In this document: positions 241-12,969 of the stretch, piece by piece
Layout: each line of letters starts with the position of its first letter
Numbering within the stretch: position 1 is the stretch's first letter
Origin: a bacterium
Lineage (GTDB): Bacteria; AUK180
Direction of reading: 5' to 3'
Length of the DNA stretch: 13,105 nucleotides
Assembly: GCA_030622125.1 (NCBI GenBank)
Contig: JAUXGM010000057.1
Coordinates: 1 to 13,105, forward strand
Notes under the pieces: model-generated
Seen by the model: the letters and a program-made list of their open reading frames with translations, nothing else
Databases searched by the model: none
Told to the model about the DNA's origin: nothing
Translations under genes and position numbers: made by a program

Positions 241-1518
241 ATGCATAAGAAGATGTTTTTACTTATCCTTGTTATCGTTGTTCTATTTATCGGATGCAAA
301 AAAGAAAAATCGAAATTAGAAGAAAAAGTAGTCGGTATTAAATTCTACACCTCTCTTGCCCAAGCTAAAAAAATCGCAAAAAAGCAGCAAAAACCAATTA
401 TGATCGATCTCTATACCGATTGGTGTAGTTGGTGTAAGGTTCTTGATGAAAAAACATATTCAGATCCCAAAGTTGGAGAGTATGTTAGTAAAAAACTTGT
501 TGCATTAAAAATTGACTCAGATAAAGAGCCGTATCTTGCAAAAAAATTTAATATTACCGGTTATCCAACGATTTTATTTATTGATAGTGATGAAAATGAA
601 GTAGACAGATTGGTAGGATTTTACAAACCGGAACAATATCTTGAAAAATTAAAGGATTTTTTTGATAAAGGTAATACATTTAAAAATTTAGAAGAAACAT
701 ATCAAGCAAAAAAAGATATTGAAAGTGCAAAAAAATATATAGATGCATTGGACAAAAGAGGAATGTACGATGAAGTGTTGGAAATAAGTAGTTTCATACT
801 GCAAAACGATCCAAATGATACTGCAACGATCACAATAAGATTTCAAACACTATTCGGCAGCGGAAAAATTAAGGAAGAAAAATATAAAAATGAATTTTTA
901 GCTCTTTCAAAAACCATTGAAAAAGAGGCGGATACAAGATATAAAAAATACAAGATATCATATTTTTACATAATGTTCTCTTACCATCTCCAGGAAAAGG
1001 ATACTCAAACAGCGTTAAAAATAGGAAATGATATGCTTTCAATGAAAGAAGTAAAAGAAAATCCCCGTCTTACTTTAAGACTAAAACTTTCCATACTAAA
1101 CACTTATATCGAAATTGGTAATCTAAAGATGACAAAAAAATGGACAGGGGAAATAGATGAAAAATATCTTATTAAAAATTTTAAACCATGGTTGAAAACC
1201 ATTACAGACAAGAATTATCTCAACAATTTGAACAAATTTGAAAGATCAGCGGGTGATTTTTTGCGTGAGATTGAAAAAGCATATAATGAAAAGAAAGATA
1301 TCGCTTCGGATACGACAAAAATTGAAATACCTAATGATCCCATAACAGATAAAAAATTACTTTATACCTGTAAACTTAATGAAAAAAAACAGCCGGCAAT
1401 TTTGATAATTGAGACACCGAATCCGGAAAAATATAAGGCTAAAAGATTGTATTTTGATATTACAAAGAATAATTTTATCCTGAATATTGAGGAAGAAAAA
1501 ACAACTGAAACAAAATAA
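241..1518 (+). CDS. Thioredoxin-like lipoprotein with long C-terminal extension
   Basis: This is a predicted envelope-anchored thiol-disulfide protein of the thioredoxin_7/DUF255-like group. Residues 1-19 form a lipoprotein signal (KK, a hydrophobic core, then FIGC), with Cys19 as the lipidation site. The thioredoxin domain spans about 35-140: the active-site motif WCSWCK has Cys62 and Cys65, and the cis-proline loop GYPT has Pro109. Residues 145-370 are charged and helical, TPR-like in places (for example 164-195), and the last 40 residues look beta-rich. Known thioredoxins are about 105 residues, so two thirds of this protein is extension. The ATG at 241 is preceded by a good CGGAGG ribosome site. 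It is first in the operon, 15 bp ahead of maf. Its redox partner is not evident; reduction of periplasmic disulfides is inferred from the CxxC motif. Confidence 0.85.
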   Translation: MHKKMFLLILVIVVLFIGCKKEKSKLEEKVVGIKFYTSLAQAKKIAKKQQKPIMIDLYTDWCSWCKVLDEKTYSDPKVGEYVSKKLVALKIDSDKEPYLAKKFNITGYPTILFIDSDENEVDRLVGFYKPEQYLEKLKDFFDKGNTFKNLEETYQAKKDIESAKKYIDALDKRGMYDEVLEISSFILQNDPNDTATITIRFQTLFGSGKIKEEKYKNEFLALSKTIEKEADTRYKKYKISYFYIMFSYHLQEKDTQTALKIGNDMLSMKEVKENPRLTLRLKLSILNTYIEIGNLKMTKKWTGEIDEKYLIKNFKPWLKTITDKNYLNNLNKFERSAGDFLREIEKAYNEKKDIASDTTKIEIPNDPITDKKLLYTCKLNEKKQPAILIIETPNPEKYKAKRLYFDITKNNFILNIEEEKTTETK

Positions 1519-1533
1519 GGTCTACGGCAGCAG

Positions 1534-2094
1534 ATGAAAAAGGTTGTACTTGTTTCCACATCACCGAGAAGAATAGGGCTATTAGAAAAGCACAATTTCT
1601 TAAGTTCACAGATAGATCCGGAGTTTGATGATTCAAATATTACTCTGAAAAACGATAATGACATTAAAAAAATCGCAAAAAAGAAACTTGATTCCGTAAA
1701 AAGATATTTTAAAAATGAGATTCTGATCGCCTGTGACACGGTTGTTAAGATCAATGATATGTATATTGGCAAACCAAGGAATCGAAAAGATGCAAAAAAA
1801 ATGCTCGAAATGCTCTCCGACTCTGTTCATTTTGTAGTAAGTTATCTTGTTATGTATGATGGAATTCATAAAAAATATCACTATAAAAAGGTTTCTACAA
1901 GGGTCTTTTTTGATAAATTGACAGATAAGGAAATGGAAAATTATCTCGATACGAATGAGTACCTTGATAAAGCAGGCGGTTATGCGGTTCAAGGAAAAGC
2001 CGCACCTTTTATTTCAAAGATAGAAGGTGATTATTATAATATCGTCGGTTTTCCTTTAAACGGTTTTTATAGATTGCTGAAAGAGATAGTATGA
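1534..2094 (+). CDS. maf: Maf-family nucleoside triphosphate pyrophosphatase
   Basis: Maf proteins hydrolyse (often modified or non-canonical) nucleoside triphosphates to the monophosphate and pyrophosphate in the cytoplasm. The signatures are in order: STSPRR at 8-13, ACDTVV at 66-71 with the catalytic-type Asp68, GKP at 79-81, the DKAGGYAVQG block at 145-154 and the EGDYYNIVGFPL block at 164-175. The length of 186 residues is normal. The usual D-E-S segment after the first strand reads FDDSN here (31-35), so one acidic residue is changed. The ATG has no convincing ribosome site: only AAGG overlapping the upstream stop codon, 13 bases away. Translation may therefore depend on coupling to the lipoprotein gene. 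The stop overlaps the next start as ATGA (2091-2094). Which subfamily substrate (dTTP/UTP or m7GTP) applies cannot be told from sequence alone. Confidence 0.92.
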   Translation: MKKVVLVSTSPRRIGLLEKHNFLSSQIDPEFDDSNITLKNDNDIKKIAKKKLDSVKRYFKNEILIACDTVVKINDMYIGKPRNRKDAKKMLEMLSDSVHFVVSYLVMYDGIHKKYHYKKVSTRVFFDKLTDKEMENYLDTNEYLDKAGGYAVQGKAAPFISKIEGDYYNIVGFPLNGFYRLLKEIV

Positions 2095-5230: not shown

Positions 5231-5783
5231 TATTGATGCTGTCTTAGCAAACTCTGATCCTCTTTTCATAAGAGAATTATCTAATATTGTAAAAAGACCG
5301 TTGAAAAGAAGAGATAATTCTTCATTTAAGTACGAAGAAGCATTTGGCATATCAGATAAGGAAATGGACATATTTTGGAAAGAGTTCACTAAAAAAAAAC
5401 TGTGGCTTAAGATACCACCTCTTGAAAATGCTGTCGAGACAGTTCGCGAACTAAATGAAACTTATCATATTGCTATTGTTTCCGCCCGCCCGGAAAGTGT
5501 AAAAGAACAGACAATGGAATGGTTAAAAATAAATCGTATAGATTATGATGAGATCCATTTTACAAACTTCGGCGATAAAGCGAAAAAATTAGAACATCTA
5601 AAAAAATTGGATTATTTTCTTGAAGATAATCCTTCTTTTGTAGAAAATTTGATCAGTAGAAATGTAAAGATAATCCTATTTAATTACCCATGGAATAGAG
5701 ATTATAAGAATAAAAATATTATCAGAGTCAATTCCTGGCTTGATGTTCAAAAGATACTTTTCAAATCCAATCTGAATAAATAA
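5205..5783 (+). CDS. HAD-superfamily 5'(3')-nucleotidase-like phosphatase (NT5C type)
   Basis: This cytosolic phosphatase of 192 residues carries the complete HAD set: motif I DIDAVLANS (9-17) with nucleophile Asp9 and acid/base Asp11, motif II IVSARP (91-96) with Ser93, a motif III lysine near 125-128, and motif IV FLEDNP (138-143) with Asp141. The overall arrangement resembles the 5'(3')-deoxyribonucleotidase family (PF06941). Motif I has Ala where most members have Gly after the second Asp. The ATG lies inside folE2 (26-bp overlap) with only a weak purine stretch upstream, suggesting coupled translation. The substrate is not settled by sequence; deoxynucleotides are the family default, and a pterin phosphate is a context-based alternative. 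Its 3' end overlaps the convergent pgsA by 37 bp. Confidence 0.82.
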   Translation: MKRKAIGIDIDAVLANSDPLFIRELSNIVKRPLKRRDNSSFKYEEAFGISDKEMDIFWKEFTKKKLWLKIPPLENAVETVRELNETYHIAIVSARPESVKEQTMEWLKINRIDYDEIHFTNFGDKAKKLEHLKKLDYFLEDNPSFVENLISRNVKIILFNYPWNRDYKNKNIIRVNSWLDVQKILFKSNLNK

Positions 5784-6301
5784 TCAATAAAGGAATATAA
5801 TGTGACAAAAAATAAGAGCCAATTTCCGACTTTCAATGAGATAGTTAGGGGATTATTTAAGCTCCAAATTGCACCTTTTGATAAAACAAATAAAAATAAG
5901 ATAAATATGATAACAACCACCTGAACCGTTGTTTTTAGCTTGCCGGAGAACATTGCCGGAATTACCGTTCCCTTAGAAGAAAAAACAAGCCGCAGGCCGG
6001 TTATTGTAAGTTCGCGGAACAGAATAAATATAACGATCCAGGCAGGCGTAAAATTGTACTTTACAAATAGAATTAGAGCGGAAAAAACAAGTATCTTATC
6101 TGCAAGCGGGTCTGCGAATTTACCGAAATCACTTACCATATTATATTTTCTTGCAATTTGGCCATCCAAAAAATCAGTAACAGATGAGAAAATATAGACA
6201 ATAAATGCCGCTAAAAAGAATTTGAGCTCGAACAAACAAACGAATATTCCTGCAAATATAATCCGAGTGATCGTTAAGATATTTGGTATGTTCTTTTTCA
6301 T
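5747..6301 (-). CDS. pgsA: CDP-diacylglycerol-glycerol-3-phosphate 3-phosphatidyltransferase
   Basis: PgsA makes phosphatidylglycerol phosphate from CDP-diacylglycerol and glycerol-3-phosphate in the inner membrane. The full CDP-alcohol phosphotransferase signature D-G-x2-A-R-x8-G-x3-D-x3-D is present with exact spacing: Asp46, Gly47, Ala50, Arg51, Gly60, Asp64 and Asp68, plus Asp43 just ahead. The start MKKNIPNILTITRI and the later FRELTITGLR (95-104) are typical of PgsA rather than other family members. About five or six hydrophobic segments are seen in 184 residues, a normal length. The ATG at 6301 overlaps the rimO stop (ATGA) and has GGGGG upstream; a start 16 codons earlier would lie inside rimO and is not preferred. 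The last 12 codons overlap the opposing nucleotidase gene. Confidence 0.93.
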   Translation of the reverse strand: MKKNIPNILTITRIIFAGIFVCLFELKFFLAAFIVYIFSSVTDFLDGQIARKYNMVSDFGKFADPLADKILVFSALILFVKYNFTPAWIVIFILFRELTITGLRLVFSSKGTVIPAMFSGKLKTTVQVVVIIFILFLFVLSKGAIWSLNNPLTISLKVGNWLLFFVTLYSFIDYLFRLDLKSIF

Positions 6302-7584
6302 ACTGCCCCCATAAAATTGCCGTTTTTTATATATAATTTCGCCTTGCAAAAATCACCGGTTTTAATTCCTTTACCTCTTATTTTAATTGTAAGGTCAATG
6401 TTTGGAGAATCTCGAAAGGTTCGCCCGATAAAGTACCCGTTTTTATGATCATCAATTACAACTGTTTCTTTTTTTCCAATCGGAAATGCCTTGTAGATAT
6501 TATCGGTTACAATATTTTCCAATTTTTCCATTCTTTCTTTTACAATGTTTTCTTGAATTGGAAATAATGACAATGATTTGATGATATTCCTTTCATCTGA
6601 GTATGGGAAAAAAACTGCCCGTTCAACCTGGTATTCTTGTAAAAAATCTATGATCATATTGAGATCGTTCTCTGTTTCAGATGGAAAACCAATGATAAAA
6701 TTTGTTCTTAGAATTCCACCTGCTGCCTTTATTTGCCTTAATCCTTTGTAAAAATTGGTAAGATCACTTTTTCTGTGCATCAATTTTAATATTCTTGGAG
6801 AAACATGCTGAACCGGAACATCAAAGTAAGCAATAACACTATTAAAACTGAGAAATCTCTCAACAAAATTTTCATCAACGGTCTCGGGATTAAGATAATG
6901 GACTCTGATCCATTTAAATCCCAATTGATCAAGTTTGGAAAGGAGTTCAAGTAAATGTGATCTGCCATCCCAATCCTTGCCGTAATCGGTTGTATCCTGA
7001 GCAATAACGATCAATTCTTTAACCCCGGATTGCAACAATTTTTCCGCTTCACATAAAACATCTTTGATCTTTTTACTTCTGAGTTTCCCTTTTATATCGG
7101 GAATTAAACAAAATGAACAGCGGTGTGAACATCCCTCTGCAATCTTAATATACTCGTAATGATTGCCGACAATAAGAGCTCTTTCGCTTTTTTCATAAAG
7201 TTTATCTCTATTTCCGAACAAGATTTTTTTTCTTTCATTATAGAATAGATCGGGATTATCGTATAGATCAATCCCTCTTATAAGATCAATATCTTCTATA
7301 TCTTTTATCTCTTGCTGAAACCGCTCGGGAAGACAGCCACAGACAATTATTTTTTTTACATATCCTTTTTTTTTATAAGCAATTGCTTTTTTCATTTCAT
7401 CGTAACTTTCTTTTACAGCAGAATTAAGAAAAGCACAGGTATTTATAATAACAATATCACTGTTTTCTATATCATAGGAAAGTTCGTATTTGCCGCTTAA
7501 TACTGAGTTTGCGATCAAAACCTCTGAATCTACGATATTTCTCGGACAGCCCAAAGAAATAATAAATATCTTCTTTTTTTTCAT
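6298..7584 (-). CDS. rimO: Ribosomal protein S12 methylthiotransferase RimO
   Basis: RimO is a radical-SAM enzyme that adds a methylthio group to a conserved aspartate of ribosomal protein S12. The N-terminal UPF0004 domain has SLGCPRNIVDSE (10-21) and cysteines 13, 50 and 84 for the auxiliary 4Fe-4S cluster. The radical SAM motif EGCSHRCSFC has Cys152, Cys156 and Cys159. PVQHVSPRILKLMHR and the C-terminal TRAM domain, introduced by GRTFRDSPNIDL, separate RimO from the tRNA enzyme MiaB. The 428-residue length is normal. The gene begins ATG AAA AAA AAG AAG, an A-rich start. Its ATG overlaps the stop of the LolA-like gene (ATGA at 7581-7584) and its stop overlaps pgsA. Confidence 0.96.
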   Translation of the reverse strand: MKKKKIFIISLGCPRNIVDSEVLIANSVLSGKYELSYDIENSDIVIINTCAFLNSAVKESYDEMKKAIAYKKKGYVKKIIVCGCLPERFQQEIKDIEDIDLIRGIDLYDNPDLFYNERKKILFGNRDKLYEKSERALIVGNHYEYIKIAEGCSHRCSFCLIPDIKGKLRSKKIKDVLCEAEKLLQSGVKELIVIAQDTTDYGKDWDGRSHLLELLSKLDQLGFKWIRVHYLNPETVDENFVERFLSFNSVIAYFDVPVQHVSPRILKLMHRKSDLTNFYKGLRQIKAAGGILRTNFIIGFPSETENDLNMIIDFLQEYQVERAVFFPYSDERNIIKSLSLFPIQENIVKERMEKLENIVTDNIYKAFPIGKKETVVIDDHKNGYFIGRTFRDSPNIDLTIKIRGKGIKTGDFCKAKLYIKNGNFMGAV

Positions 7585-8225
7585 AAACGGAAAAGTTTTT
7601 TAATCTCTTTTTCAGTTATTTTAGGATATGTAACATTTTTTATTTTAAAGTAAAGTATTCGATCATCTCTCCCTATGAAAGAGACCTCTTTTAATTTTAA
7701 ATTTTTTGAGTTCAGGATAAATTCTACTCTTTTAAATTCAAATTCCTTTTCTTTTGGAATAAGCACTATCAATATCTCTCTATCGCTATTTTTATAGATT
7801 TTTTTATCGAAAAATTCCCATTTTTTTTTGGAAGGGATCAAATAAAATAATGAATCTTCCTTAAACGGAAATGTTTGTGTTTCTCTTTTTCCCTCTATTG
7901 TTGATTCAACAAAGAGTAATTTTCCATTTGAAATATAGAGATCCCTGGTTTTGTTCTCTATATTGATATTGAAGTAATAGGTTGCCATTTTGTAAATACC
8001 TGTTCCGGTAAATTCACTCCACTTTTCAAGAAATGGAATATAGACCCTTTCTTTAAAATCTATTTTTACAAGATCTATCTTGTTGTAAACATTATAGATA
8101 GAATTTAGAATGATCGTAGAATCATCTTTTTTTGTTTCCTTAAATCGATCATCAAGGAGCGTGAATGACGATAAAAGCAAAAAAGCGATCGGGATCAGTA
8201 AAATGTTTGTTTTATTTCTTCCCAT
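7581..8225 (-). CDS. lolA: LolA-like periplasmic lipoprotein carrier
   Basis: Predicted periplasmic chaperone that shuttles lipoproteins from the inner membrane to the outer membrane. Residues 1-24 form a Sec signal (RNK followed by a leucine-rich core) without a lipobox cysteine. The mature part has the LolA pattern: IDFKERVYIPFLEKW (55-69), FTGTGIYKMATYYFNINIE (72-90) and DLYISNGKLLFV (95-106), which match the strand series dF.Q...G.l....p..f......vsdG..l. Sequence identity to classical LolA would be low, so the call rests on pattern, length (214) and the position directly after ftsK, an arrangement also found in Proteobacteria. The ATG lies inside ftsK (31-bp overlap) with AAGGGA a few bases upstream. 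Confidence 0.78.
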   Translation of the reverse strand: MGRNKTNILLIPIAFLLLSSFTLLDDRFKETKKDDSTIILNSIYNVYNKIDLVKIDFKERVYIPFLEKWSEFTGTGIYKMATYYFNINIENKTRDLYISNGKLLFVESTIEGKRETQTFPFKEDSLFYLIPSKKKWEFFDKKIYKNSDREILIVLIPKEKEFEFKRVEFILNSKNLKLKEVSFIGRDDRILYFKIKNVTYPKITEKEIKKLFRL

Positions 8226-10339
8226 TTTTCCCTTGTTATTAGTAGAGCCCGTTTCCCCGACCTATCTTTCGGGGAGATAATATCCATCTCCTCCATTGTA
8301 TAGATCAATCTGGATGCACGATTAAAACCAATTGAAAGAACTGTTTGCAAATAAGAGGTAGAGACCTTATTTACGGTTAGAAGTGCTTCAACGGCATCAA
8401 TAAAAAGATCATCATCAACTTTAACTTTTTTCTCGCCATTTGATGTCTTTCCCTCCGTGAAATATTCTTCTTCCCAATCCTCATATTCCATTCCCTCTAA
8501 ATTATTCCAATAATCAACAATTTTTTTTGTCTCATTATCCGGTGAAAAAGGTGACTGTGCCCGTATAAGATCACTGCTTCCCGGAGGTAAGTAAAGTAAG
8601 TCGCCTTTCCCCAGTAATGCCTCTGCACCATTTTTATCAAATATTGTTCTTGAGTCAACCTTTTGTGCCACCCTAAAAGCAATTCGGACAGGAAAATTAC
8701 TTTTAATAACCCCCGTAATAACATCAACCGACGGTCTTTGGGTTGCAAGAATAAGATGGATACCAACTGCGCGTGCAAGTTGGGCAAGTCGAGCGATTGA
8801 TGTCTCTACTTCATTTTTTGCTACTAACATTAGATCTGCAAGCTCATCAATAATAACAATGATATAGGGGAATTTTCTAAGTTCGGGATTTTCTTTTTTA
8901 TGTTCTTCAACATAATGATTGTATTTGGTTATATGATTTAATCCGTAATTTGCCATTTCTCTGTATCGAAATTCCATCCGTGTCACTATTTCAGCAAGTT
9001 TTTTTGCCGCTGCTTTCGGCTCAACTACAATATCTGTTAAAAGATGCGGGAGTTTCCTATATTTTGTCATCTCTACTCGCTTCGGATCAATTAAAAGCAT
9101 TCTTAAATAGTCCGGTGTGAATTGCATCAAAAGTGAATTTACGATCGTCTTTATCATTACCGATTTACCGGATCCGGTAGAACCTGCGATCAAAAGGTGG
9201 GGCATCTCGTCAAGTCCGCCTATAATATATGAACCATCAATACAACAACCGATACCAAATTTTAAGTTTGACTTCTTTTTTAAAAAATTTGTAGATAAAA
9301 GGACCTCCCTTAATGAGATCATCTTCTTGTTCTCATTTGGGATTTCAACACCAATTGCCTGTTTGCCGGGAATAGGAGCAATAATCCTGACCGGCGATTT
9401 TGCAAGTGTATATGCAATATCTTTTTCCAGAGAAGTTATTTGATTTATCCTTTGCCCGGGTGCTATACTGAATTCATATCTTGTTACGGTCGGTCCCTGA
9501 ATATAAGTTAACAAGGAGGCATCAACTCCAAGCTCTTTCAGGGTCGAGATCAATTTTTCTCCGATTTTTTCAAGGGCTGAGGCATCCGTTTTTAGATTTC
9601 CTCTTGATCCCTTATCAAGAATATCAAAGGACGGTGGTTTTATATCGGTAATATTTATAGTTGGTTCAATAATCGGAACTTCCTTTTTGTTTTCTTTTAC
9701 CTTGATTTGTTTAATCTTTTTTTCTTTAAATTTAATTCTTTTTTCTCTTGACCGCTCCTTTTTTGCATTTTCTTTTTTTCTTTTTCGTTCTTTTTTAACA
9801 GTGAGTATATTGAAAAGTCTATTCTTGATATTGAGAACGAATCTTTTGAAAAGAAAATTAGTCATAGCAAAAACGCTGACAAAAAAAAGTAAGGCGGCAA
9901 AAATAATAGTCCCCAATTTACCAACGACCTTTGAAAGGATACTGACAAGAAAATAACCTACATAACCAACAATATATAAATATGAATGGTTTAATTTCCC
10001 GTCCGACGGAAGTTGTTTTATAATACCGAGGATAATGGAAAAGGCAATCATAAAAATAGGTAAACCATACCAACTGTTAAGGCTATTTTCTTTTGAAAGA
10101 AAAAGTTTTACCGCAATAATGATCAATAAGATCGGAAGGGCGAAACTGCTCCATCCAAAAGCAACCTTAAAACCGAAAGCAATAACCATTCCAATCTGCC
10201 CGATAACAGGATATTCTTTACCCGTAGTTGATAAAAGTGGGTTTTTACTGCCATTATAAGTAATTAAACTTATCCCAATGTAAAGTGATAGAAGAAATAA
10301 AATAATACCAATAAGTTCTAATTTCTGTTCTTTTTTCAT
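8195..10339 (-). CDS. ftsK: DNA translocase FtsK/SpoIIIE
   Basis: FtsK is a septum-anchored hexameric ATPase that pumps chromosomal DNA during division and aids dimer resolution. Residues 1-165 hold about four membrane segments. Residues 181-222 are a short, very lysine/arginine-rich linker. The motor follows: Walker A GSTGSGKS (386-393), Walker B IIVIIDE (493-499) and the ATQRPSVDVITGVIKSNFP block (532-550). The C-terminal winged-helix gamma domain (about 642-705, DAVEALLTVNKVSTSYLQ onward) reads polar DNA motifs. At 714 residues it has the compact SpoIIIE-like layout, without the long E. coli linker. The ATG is 3 bp after the uppP stop, with the GGGG at the uppP end as a likely ribosome site. 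The 3' end is shared with lolA. Confidence 0.97.
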   Translation of the reverse strand: MKKEQKLELIGIILFLLSLYIGISLITYNGSKNPLLSTTGKEYPVIGQIGMVIAFGFKVAFGWSSFALPILLIIIAVKLFLSKENSLNSWYGLPIFMIAFSIILGIIKQLPSDGKLNHSYLYIVGYVGYFLVSILSKVVGKLGTIIFAALLFFVSVFAMTNFLFKRFVLNIKNRLFNILTVKKERKRKKENAKKERSREKRIKFKEKKIKQIKVKENKKEVPIIEPTINITDIKPPSFDILDKGSRGNLKTDASALEKIGEKLISTLKELGVDASLLTYIQGPTVTRYEFSIAPGQRINQITSLEKDIAYTLAKSPVRIIAPIPGKQAIGVEIPNENKKMISLREVLLSTNFLKKKSNLKFGIGCCIDGSYIIGGLDEMPHLLIAGSTGSGKSVMIKTIVNSLLMQFTPDYLRMLLIDPKRVEMTKYRKLPHLLTDIVVEPKAAAKKLAEIVTRMEFRYREMANYGLNHITKYNHYVEEHKKENPELRKFPYIIVIIDELADLMLVAKNEVETSIARLAQLARAVGIHLILATQRPSVDVITGVIKSNFPVRIAFRVAQKVDSRTIFDKNGAEALLGKGDLLYLPPGSSDLIRAQSPFSPDNETKKIVDYWNNLEGMEYEDWEEEYFTEGKTSNGEKKVKVDDDLFIDAVEALLTVNKVSTSYLQTVLSIGFNRASRLIYTMEEMDIISPKDRSGKRALLITREKWEEIKQTFY

Positions 10340-10342
10340 AAT

Positions 10343-11137
10343 TTACCCCAGAACTAATATCAAAATACCGATTACCATTGTATAAACTCCAAAAAGGTAA
10401 TAATTTTTGGATCTAATTATTTTTTTTAACAATTTCAAAGCAAAATAACCCGATATAAATGCAATTACGAACCCTGCGGCATAGGAAAATATAGATAGAT
10501 CCGTTGCTGCACCTGCTCCTTTAACGGTTTCATATAAAAATGCACCGATAATAACAGGAATAGAAAGCAAAAATGAAAAACTAAATGCGTAATCGGGAGA
10601 ATTACCTGAGACAACTCCTGCCATTATGGTAGAGCCTGATCTTGATATGCCGGGGATTGATGCCACTCCCTGCATAAATCCTATAAAAATTGAATCCAAA
10701 ATTCCACCTTTTCTTGTGCTTTCAAAATGTTTTTTTATAAATATCTGTGAAGTTATGTTCACTACCCCTGTAAATATAAATGCGAAAGCGACTAATTTCA
10801 GATTTTTCGGATCAAAGATATTTTCAATTTGATTTTGAAAAAACAATACAAAAATCACCGTTATAATTGTTCCGAAAACAAGGTTTTGTAGTAATTTTGA
10901 TTCCTTTTTAAAAGGTGTCTTGACCATTCTTAGGATATTTATTATCTCGCTTCTAAAAAATATTATAACCGCCAAAAGGGTTGCTATGTGCAAAACAAGA
11001 TCAAAGTATAATCCACCTTTAAACTTATCGTCTAAAAAATATTGGGTAACGGTAAGATGACCGGAAGAAGAGATCGGCAAAAATTCCGTTAATCCCTGCT
11101 CAAGTCCAAGCAGCAAAGAGTAAATTATTTCTTTCAC
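10343..11137 (-). CDS. uppP: Undecaprenyl-diphosphatase UppP (BacA), GTG start
   Basis: This integral membrane phosphatase recycles undecaprenyl pyrophosphate to the monophosphate carrier used for peptidoglycan and other envelope polymers. The first active-site motif is EQGLTEFLPISSSGH (13-27) and the second is ASIPGISRSGST (159-170) with Arg166. About eight hydrophobic segments fill the 264 residues, the usual length. The start codon is GTG (11135-11137), and the family N-terminus fits it exactly. It shares one base with the TAG stop of the TPR gene (TAGTG), so initiation is probably coupled to termination upstream; no good ribosome site is present. Confidence 0.95.
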   Translation of the reverse strand: MKEIIYSLLLGLEQGLTEFLPISSSGHLTVTQYFLDDKFKGGLYFDLVLHIATLLAVIIFFRSEIINILRMVKTPFKKESKLLQNLVFGTIITVIFVLFFQNQIENIFDPKNLKLVAFAFIFTGVVNITSQIFIKKHFESTRKGGILDSIFIGFMQGVASIPGISRSGSTIMAGVVSGNSPDYAFSFSFLLSIPVIIGAFLYETVKGAGAATDLSIFSYAAGFVIAFISGYFALKLLKKIIRSKNYYLFGVYTMVIGILILVLG

Positions 11138-12453
11138 TATTTTTTAAGAACTCCGGATTTTTCAATATTTGTAACGATATTTTTTATAGCATCCATTTTT
11201 TTTCTTTTCAGAACTTTTTTACCCCAGTAATATGCTTTTTTATGCTGCTTATTCATATAATACGCATAAGTAAGTCCAATCATTGATGCTAAAAAATTGG
11301 GTTTTGCAACAAGTGCTTTTTTATAATAGCCAATTGCTTTTTGACAATTTGGCGGTTTTTTGCTAAAATAACATTTTCCAAGATTGTGATATACTGAGTA
11401 ATCTGCTTTTTTCAATACTATCAATCTTGAGTAATAATTGATGGCTGAACCATAGTTCTCAAGTTCCATATATGCATCACCAATATTTATAATGACAACA
11501 GGATCACTTCCGCCATGCTCTTCCGCCTTTTTAAATTGTTCCATTGCTTCGTTCTTTTTCCCAAGCCTAAAAAACGATTTTCCCGATCCAAGATAAGCGA
11601 TTGCATTATCATCTTCTTTTGCAATTGCTTTATTAAAAAGTCCTAATGCTTTTTCATAGTCTTTATTATTAATTGCATCCTGTCCAAGCCATAGGAGTAC
11701 CTGCATATCTCCTTCACCAAGATTTTCAAGTTTAGCCATTTCTTTTAAAACACCTTTCTTATCACCTTTGGTGTTCAATATATTTATCTTTAATTTGATA
11801 AAGTTAAGATTATCGGGGTTTTCCTTCAATTTTTCATCTATTGCTTGCAGTGCTTTATCATATCTTTCGGTTTTTGTATAGATATTGATCAATTGTTTTG
11901 ACATTGCCTCTTCATAGGCGGGGTTTACCATTGCATTCAATGCCGCTTCCTCTGCTTTGTCCCACATTCCTTTTTCGGAAAAGATAATATAAAGATTGTA
12001 ATAGGCGGTTGCCTGATTGTTCTTGATACTTTTCTCACTTTCAACATCTGTATTTTCAATTGTTAGTGCTTTTTCAAAATAGATTTGAGCAGTATCGGAT
12101 GACTTGGATTGTTCTTCTGCTGTTGTCCCCTTTTTCCCCTTTTCTAAATAGTATGTTCCCAATTGCAGATAAGCATAAGTGGTTTTATTATGTTCCAATG
12201 ATTTTTTATACCACTCAATAGCACCGTCAATATCGCCTCTTTTGTAAGCAATATTACCTAAACAATAGTAGGCATTAACAAATTCGGGAGCTCCCTTGAT
12301 CACCTTGGTATAATATTTAACGGCTTCATCCAGGTTGCCTGCCTTTTCCGCTTTTTGTCCATGTTTCCAATAATTTTTGGAAAGTTCACCGAAACTGTAA
12401 GTCAAACTTACGCACATTGCAAAAATAAAAATAAATGCAAATAACTTCTTCAT
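11137..12453 (-). CDS. Secreted TPR-repeat protein
   Basis: A 438-residue protein with a Sec signal peptide (residues 1-20, KK then a hydrophobic core ending TYS) followed almost entirely by tetratricopeptide repeats. Clear units begin near residues 26 (YWKHGQKAEKAGNLDEAVKY), 60 (AYYCLGNIAYKRGDIDGAIE), 94 (AYLQLGTYYLEKG) and in the second half around DNAIAYLGSGKSFFRLGKKN and VIINIGDAYMELENYGSAIN. At least eight repeats are likely. TPR proteins act as scaffolds, so the partner and exact role are unknown. Location in the periplasm, and linkage to uppP and ftsK, suggest an envelope or division role (inference). The ATG at 12453 has a near-perfect AAGGAGG (12467-12461) seven bases upstream. Confidence 0.88.
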   Translation of the reverse strand: MKKLFAFIFIFAMCVSLTYSFGELSKNYWKHGQKAEKAGNLDEAVKYYTKVIKGAPEFVNAYYCLGNIAYKRGDIDGAIEWYKKSLEHNKTTYAYLQLGTYYLEKGKKGTTAEEQSKSSDTAQIYFEKALTIENTDVESEKSIKNNQATAYYNLYIIFSEKGMWDKAEEAALNAMVNPAYEEAMSKQLINIYTKTERYDKALQAIDEKLKENPDNLNFIKLKINILNTKGDKKGVLKEMAKLENLGEGDMQVLLWLGQDAINNKDYEKALGLFNKAIAKEDDNAIAYLGSGKSFFRLGKKNEAMEQFKKAEEHGGSDPVVIINIGDAYMELENYGSAINYYSRLIVLKKADYSVYHNLGKCYFSKKPPNCQKAIGYYKKALVAKPNFLASMIGLTYAYYMNKQHKKAYYWGKKVLKRKKMDAIKNIVTNIEKSGVLKK

Positions 12454-12638
12454 AAGAATACCTCCTTATAATATACATTTTTAGAATTAAGATATAAAGT
12501 CATCATTCTATGAGACCATCCATCTTTTTTTAACATTATATAGTATATCATATTTTTTATATATTTTTCAAATTTATAAGCAAATTTTTTTTTCTTTGTT
12601 TTTAGAATTTGTCTCTTTTTTTCTTTTTCAGTCATCAT
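12450..12638 (-). CDS. Small lysine-rich ORF at the head of the minus operon
   Basis: A 62-codon ORF starting with tandem ATG ATG, preceded by GAGG (12647-12644) at good spacing, and ending in an ATGA overlap with the TPR gene. It is immediately downstream of a sigma54-type promoter whose expected start falls near 12650. The product is strongly basic (about a quarter lysine), with no signal peptide and no family I recognise; the stretch FEKYIKNMIYYIMLKK could be an amphipathic helix. Its final codons (KEV) carry the ribosome site of the TPR gene, so translation of this ORF would reach and affect that start. It may be a small protein, a leader ORF or simply an open leader sequence. Confidence 0.5.
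   Translation of the reverse strand: MMTEKEKKRQILKTKKKKFAYKFEKYIKNMIYYIMLKKDGWSHRMMTLYLNSKNVYYKEVFL
12461..12467 (-). promoter_or_regulatory. Strong ribosome binding site of the TPR gene
   Basis: AAGGAGG on the minus strand, seven bases before the ATG at 12453, fixes the start of the TPR protein. It is embedded in the last codons of the upstream small ORF. Confidence 0.85.
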
Positions 12639-12659
12639 TTTAACCTCATTTCATAAATA

Positions 12660-12675
12660 TGCAAAACTTGTGCCA
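12660..12675 (-). promoter_or_regulatory. Sigma54 (RpoN) -24/-12 promoter element
   Basis: Read on the minus strand, TGGCAC (12675-12670), five bases (AAGTT) and TTGCA (12664-12660) reproduce the sigma54 consensus TGGCAC-N5-TTGCW with no mismatch and the required GG-N10-GC spacing. The predicted transcript start is near 12650, just ahead of the ribosome site and the tandem ATG at 12638. The element points into the small ORF, TPR, uppP, ftsK, lolA, rimO and pgsA genes. Sigma54 promoters need an enhancer-binding activator; no activator gene or obvious upstream palindrome is in the window. Confidence 0.7.
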
Positions 12676-12717: not shown

Positions 12718-12969
12718 ATGAAAACAATGGAAGATTATAACAAAATTTTAGTAATTTTCGTGTTTTTTATATTTATGTCCAATGAGAATATAATTTATGC
12801 AAACGGAGGAGAAATGAAGATTAATAAAATTGACATTAGTTCATTCATATACCGTTCAGATCATATATTTGTCGGTAAAGTGATTGATTTAATGGAAATC
12901 GAGAATATACCAGATGATTGGCGTTCATCATTTGCGCTTTCCGAAATAATGTTGTTTCATAACCGATGA
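12718..12969 (+). CDS. Short secreted protein ORF, probably truncated
   Basis: An 83-codon ORF that begins like a signal peptide: a short n-region (MKTMEDYNK), a hydrophobic core ILVIFVFFIFM and a polar c-region ending near YANGG. The mature part has a recognisable beta-like start (SDHIFVGKVIDLMEIE), as in secreted proteins of unknown function whose domains run much longer, and it stops after about 50 residues with no obvious fold completed. I do not recognise the family. With the promoter at 12682-12710 the mRNA would be essentially leaderless at ATG 12718; ATG 12727 is an alternative. An internal ATG at 12814 has a far better ribosome site but would remove the signal peptide. The ORF may be the 5' remnant of a longer gene. 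Confidence 0.5.
   Translation: MKTMEDYNKILVIFVFFIFMSNENIIYANGGEMKINKIDISSFIYRSDHIFVGKVIDLMEIENIPDDWRSSFALSEIMLFHNR
12805..12809 (+). promoter_or_regulatory. Internal Shine-Dalgarno ahead of ATG 12814
   Basis: GGAGG lies four bases before an in-frame ATG, the best ribosome site in this neighbourhood. It would yield a 51-residue cytoplasmic form of the downstream ORF. It may instead be chance, because it encodes the plausible Gly-Gly-Glu just after the signal peptide. Confidence 0.35.

Follow-up and report, generated by a model that had tools for sequence, protein, structure and literature searches.

Control of the bacterial exterior by sigma54, through lipid, LPS, lipoprotein and peptidoglycan functions, has been described before (Francke et al., 2011, PMC3162934), and the operon considered here fits the same envelope functions; a search of the text of that paper for lpxC, ftsK and undecaprenyl found no mention of them. 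Predicted sigma54 regulons across phyla include LpxC (COG0774) in Myxococcia and heat-shock chaperones (PMC12316311, where uppP is not mentioned), and lpxC, dnaK and hsp20 bear sigma54 boxes in the family of the present genome too. In E. coli, conserved intragenic sigma54 promoters with long 5' UTRs have been reported (Bonocora et al., 2015, PMC4591121). The boxes that we predict in relatives of our genome are similar in this respect, lying within the final part of the upstream gene some 120 nt ahead of the first ORF of the operon, but they have TTGT instead of TTGC as their -12 element, and the box of the locus under study is intergenic. Compared with sigma54 -24/-12 promoters in general, this locus has the same consensus bases without exception, the same spacing, RpoN and activators in the genome and a short distance to the start codon; it differs in that no activator site was recognised at the box, that the target is a housekeeping-type operon and that the promoter is predicted from sequence. 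Envelope control by sigma54 is an already known theme, for which a core-envelope operon is a less usual target. The remark in the preliminary description that RpoN control of such housekeeping genes would be unusual is weakened by this literature and by lpxC.

The window, by which we mean the whole stretch of 13,105 nt analysed, carries on its minus strand, from 12675 to 12660, the sequence TGGCACAAGTTTTGCA, which a pattern scan found to hold all specified bases of TGGCAC-N5-TTGCA at the right spacing, with GG and GC ten bases apart as in sigma54 -24/-12 promoters (Table 1). It is the only match in the window with no or one mismatch to the consensus; with two mismatches allowed there are two matches, against 1.89 expected. 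Its PSSM score of 21.2 is the maximum of the window, the runner-up scoring 13.5. The box is noncoding, the longest frame across it having 30 codons, and it is oriented towards the operon, 21 nt from an ATG provided with a GAGG resembling a Shine-Dalgarno sequence. From base composition the exact word is expected 0.002 times per window and 0.34 times per 2.08-Mb genome, and Markov models and word counts give 0.32–0.79 per genome. The consensus, spacing and direction claimed in the preliminary description are all borne out, as is its statement that a chance match in 13 kb is unlikely. Its claim of a right distance to the first ORF holds for the 21 nt to the ATG; the first gene, however, is not uppP, since orf62 and a gene for a TPR-repeat protein, which the ATGA overlap would couple to orf62 in translation, intervene.

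Table 1. Features of the window, with the loci of two genes followed across the genomes
Feature	Position or locus	Strand	Basis
pgsA (CDP-alcohol phosphatidyltransferase), ATG inside a longer listed ORF	5747..6301	-	PF01066 2.6e-42; synteny
rimO	6298..7584	-	radical SAM, UPF0004 and TRAM domains; synteny
Probable lolA (weak profile match)	7581..8225	-	NCBIfam LolA1_Flavo 19.8 bits, cut-off 100; synteny
ftsK DNA translocase	8195..10339	-	PF01580, PF17854, PF09397, PF13491; synteny
uppP (BacA family undecaprenyl-diphosphatase)	10343..11137	-	PF02673 7e-67; synteny
TPR-repeat protein, 438 aa, signal-peptide-like start, first conserved operon gene	11137..12453	-	Pfam TPR; orthologues
orf62, 62 codons, stop overlaps TPR start (ATGA)	12450..12638	-	ORF list; exceeds 99.9% of shuffles of the region in length
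P2 candidate, sigma70-like TTGAAA-N18-TATACT, TG before second hexamer	12542..12571	-	10/12 matches
GAGG, Shine-Dalgarno-like, of orf62	12644..12647	-	read from sequence
Predicted transcription start +1 (A12649, +/-1)	12649	-	usual sigma54 geometry
Sigma54 -24/-12 promoter box (P1) TGGCACAAGTTTTGCA	12660..12675	-	exact consensus, PSSM 21.2, noncoding
80-codon ORF in divergent orientation, probably what is left of a secreted-protein gene that lacks its middle part	12727..12969	+	comparison with G003
lpxC loci	L155, L152, L153, L154, L156 (five); also L150, L151
31-aa protein loci	L032, L033, L034, L035, L074, L077, L078

The machinery for such a promoter is encoded in the genome. One RpoN was found by profile search (PF04552, E 6.9e-52), full-length and with an intact RpoN box, ARRTTAKYRE, and RpoN is also present in all six nearest relatives. 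There are ten strong PF00158 matches to the activator domain, and the exact GAFTGA loop is seen in seven of the nine activators whose sequence was read. Both rpoN and activator genes, which the preliminary description had suggested looking for, are therefore at hand. A palindrome search upstream of the window box gave nothing convincing as an activator site; one AT-rich palindrome with 6-bp arms lies 83 nt away.

A scan for the same element elsewhere, also suggested there, was clear in its outcome: the genome holds three exact matches and none to the pattern read backwards, 39 matches with one mismatch against 2 for the reversed control, and 15 matches to the relaxed pattern TGGCRYN5TTGCW against 3 for the control. 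One of the two other exact sites lies directly upstream of lpxC, and a sigma54-like box was found at the corresponding position in each of the seven genomes compared (G000, to which the window belongs; the family relatives G001 to G004; the class-level outgroups G005 and G006). It is exact in G000, has one mismatch in G001, G002 and G004 and two in G003 and G005, and is weak, with three, in G006. In the five genomes of the family only 11–12 nt separate its end from the start codon, which implies a nearly leaderless lpxC mRNA there. The third exact site is situated after an activator gene and before a conserved hairpin RNA. Taken together, exact and near-exact boxes are far above the controls, mostly intergenic and ahead of secreted or envelope genes, the near-exact ones being upstream of signal-peptide proteins, dnaK or hsp20, DegP-like proteases and a sugar transferase (all named by eye from translations). 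With a matrix of the family boxes, 1.18 Mb of three genomes gave 14 matches of at least 16 bits, 10 of them within the roughly 7% of the DNA that is noncoding, and the reversed matrix gave none; part of the training set of the matrix came from these genomes, and its scores and the consensus counts are not independent evidence. A box of such quality in a spacer, facing a gene, is usually real here, and we regard the one in the window as very probably a real sigma54 promoter.

The activator-linked RNA was seen at L018:1112-1269, L135:890-995 and L197:14636-14742 on the minus strand and at L116:1029-1200 on the plus strand, the activator gene standing directly before the box in G000, G001 and G002. 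Downstream of the sigma54 box this RNA-like element has a terminator stem that is conserved, GGGAAGGTGC/GCACCTTCCC, together with a loop, or two, bearing CCCCTCCTT(TC), resembling the anti-Shine-Dalgarno tail of 16S rRNA; a search of Rfam with the L018 copy gave no match. It is probably a sigma54-dependent small RNA pairing with Shine-Dalgarno sites.

On the downstream side of the window box, TPR-uppP-ftsK-lolA-rimO-pgsA are collinear on a single strand, each gene overlapping the next or lying a short gap away from it, as is typical of an operon, and the TPR protein has orthologues, 44–58% identical, in four family genomes. In G001, about 430 nt (L105:10417-10842) that are absent in its near relative G004 lie between TPR and uppP. 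The length of orf62 is not matched by any support from codon usage, and no convincing homologue was found in the seven genomes; its assignment to a known family was rejected, the TaqI_C match being weak and below cut-off and NCBIfam giving none. Since no terminator-like site was found on the minus strand between the box and the TPR gene, read-through from the one into the other is expected. A similar arrangement occurs in G002, where an exact box precedes, likewise at a distance of 21 nt, a short ORF overlapping the next gene, hsp20. This leader ORF has no likeness by eye to orf62, and in an alignment of the two DNAs the box region alone is clearly common.

The upstream side of the operon has changed in this genome. 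G001, G003 and G004 share the gene order suhB...nuc53 / pgsA-rimO-lolA-ftsK-uppP-TPR, as does G002 over the part present, and in G001 to G004 a 31-aa basic ORF and a peptidase gene of M14 type (named by eye) stand ahead of the TPR gene. In G000 the peptidase gene and the 31-aa ORF sit together, whole, on contig C67, followed there by unrelated sequence; the upstream DNA of the window is therefore new, and by this comparison of gene order the box is at a rearranged junction, as given by one draft genome of 192 contigs in which the box is 430 bases from the end of its contig. No relative was found to have the window box at the orthologous position, since the DNA upstream has been rearranged in G000; as to the conservation for which the preliminary description had looked, four relatives have weaker sigma54-like boxes, placed within the upstream gene. 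Over 30 residues, the divergent ORF next to the box is 63% identical to the C-terminus encoded by a G003 frame of 427 codons; its N- and C-terminal ends align to this longer secreted protein, and the centre is missing in frame. The 31-aa, very basic protein (MPSGRRRKLLKVKKHKRRKKRRANRHKKKAY) is itself present and conserved in each of the seven genomes, and six of them have it immediately ahead of the TPR gene. Pfam and NCBIfam have no match to it; the idea that it is a protein of the AURKAIP1/COX24 type was accordingly dropped and the ORF left unnamed.

Promoters of the sigma70 type need to be considered as well. The region has 19 sigma70-like sites against 14.7 expected, and in this AT-rich DNA the candidate at 12571-12542, which we call P2, is not significant alone. 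Upstream of the 31-aa ORF there is a sigma70-like promoter ending TATAAT in four relatives and before the C67 copy, and the same promoter is readable by eye in G005 and G006. Because of this class-wide promoter in the relatives and of the sigma70-like site that the window itself has downstream of the box, it is unlikely that RpoN controls the operon alone, and P2 probably supplies its basal transcription. Transcript starts explained by a sigma70 promoter elsewhere had been named in the preliminary description as a finding that could refute it; sigma70-like sites do appear, as read from sequence, at P2 and in the relatives.

The explanation that we favour, and consider rather likely, is that P1 is a genuine sigma54 promoter at a rearranged junction which gives signal-dependent expression of the operon atop basal transcription from P2. 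RNA polymerase with sigma54 would bind 12675-12660 as a closed complex, and one of the enhancer-binding proteins, activated by its signal, would then bring about a start near 12649, a position set by the usual -24/-12 numbering with the last base of the box at -11, close to the 12650 of the preliminary description and 11 nt before the first ATG (12638). The mRNA from P1 would comprise orf62, as a short and possibly translated leader, TPR and uppP-ftsK-lolA-rimO-pgsA; transcription from P2, starting perhaps around 12535, would provide the basal expression to which P1 adds. The box, RpoN, the activators, the synteny and the altered neighbourhood are established by the sequence comparisons, whereas the activity of P1, read-through into the operon, the part played by P2 and the choice of activator are inferred. 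RpoN control of the operon, as put forward in the preliminary description, is partly supported: on its side are the box, RpoN, the activators, the excess of boxes over the controls and the lpxC box in seven of seven genomes, and against it a box that is not orthologous and the presence of sigma70-like promoters.

Let us suppose, alternatively, that the box is real and serves orf62 alone, as a leftover leader or the remnant of a lost gene, adding little to the TPR-uppP operon, which would be driven by P2. The rearranged junction, an orf62 without homologues, the adjoining divergent ORF as a deletion remnant and the class-wide conservation of the operon's sigma70-like promoters would agree with this, but between box and TPR gene the minus strand is free of terminator-like sites, and with orf62 linked to the TPR gene by the ATGA overlap read-through would be expected all the same; we hold this arrangement to be unlikely. 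The draft state of the genome, the nearness of the contig end and the different genes preceding TPR in the relatives also raise the thought that the assembly has joined the operon to an unrelated piece containing the box. A true rearrangement, however, predicts just what is found on C67, that is, the ancestral upstream genes whole and with different sequence downstream of them, and an overlap as neat as that of orf62 and TPR would be rare in a random join, which makes such an artefact quite improbable.

That the box is a functionless sigma54-like word arisen by chance in an AT-rich spacer is, in our estimation, highly improbable. The 0.3–0.8 exact words expected genome-wide and the lack of an orthologously placed box in the relatives favour it, but this word falls within the roughly 8% of the DNA that is noncoding, in the right direction and 21 nt from a start codon with a Shine-Dalgarno sequence; the reversed matrix is without any match, and the support by conservation for the other two exact sites, at lpxC and at the activator-linked RNA, speaks against chance. 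Beyond its role in these comparisons, the rearrangement in the family is a natural experiment on the ways in which an operon can hold on to its promoter or regain one.

The relatives have candidate boxes of their own. In four of them the top sigma54 score upstream of the operon belongs to a box within the final codons of the gene for the peptidase, at -132 to -139 from the 31-aa ORF, with 15.1, 15.1, 15.1 and 18.5 bits; that of G002 (L035) reads TGGCACATATATTGTA. The homologous peptidase codons of G000, no longer facing the operon, score 1.7 bits. Codon mimicry by the C-terminal SGxYxV motif was considered at first as an origin of these boxes: among 1.18 Mb of sequence there are 26 further motifs of the SGxYx type, just 10 of them C-terminal, none of which scored at least 15, and mimicry alone looks insufficient to account for the boxes on this count. 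Codons are identical in G004, G003 and G002 at 3 of 3 conserved-residue positions of the box, against 35 of 145 over the gene, in a post hoc analysis with just three independent lineages. The class-level outgroups have no box ahead of the operon in the 642 nt available for G005 or the 246 nt for G006. These weaker in-gene boxes, lost where the operon departed, are suggestive, though not proof, of ancestral sigma54 control. A fuller scenario, in which the family's operon was under sigma54 control ancestrally and regained an exact box after the rearrangement while the orphaned box decayed, is one that we offer tentatively and would call possible, not probable.

If P1 is active, uppP (lipid-carrier recycling) and ftsK (chromosome segregation at division) would be raised jointly by one signal, with pgsA (phospholipid synthesis) and the probable lolA (lipoprotein transport) in the same response, alongside lpxC (LPS), and the idea that sigma54 controls the exterior would reach beyond surface decoration to take in the growth of the core envelope, here in an uncultured lineage. 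Should the ancestral reading be true as well, this lineage would run core envelope growth via activator signals, and the operon would be grouped with lpxC, dnaK/hsp20, secreted-protein genes and the RNA with the anti-Shine-Dalgarno-like loops.

Two observations concern the heat-shock genes. Upstream of dnaK in G000 (L028, about 1500-1740, plus strand) there is, after a sigma54 box, an ORF of 40 aa which resembles, in a weak match, both ends of the hsp20 that occupies the same place in G002, and which is a possible further in-frame deletion remnant. The sigma54 promoters of hsp20 in the relatives (L110, L138, L145) have clear upstream palindromes, two TGTCA-N7-TGACA in G002 and CTGTAAAG-N3-CTTTACAG in G001 and G004, which are likely to be activator sites.
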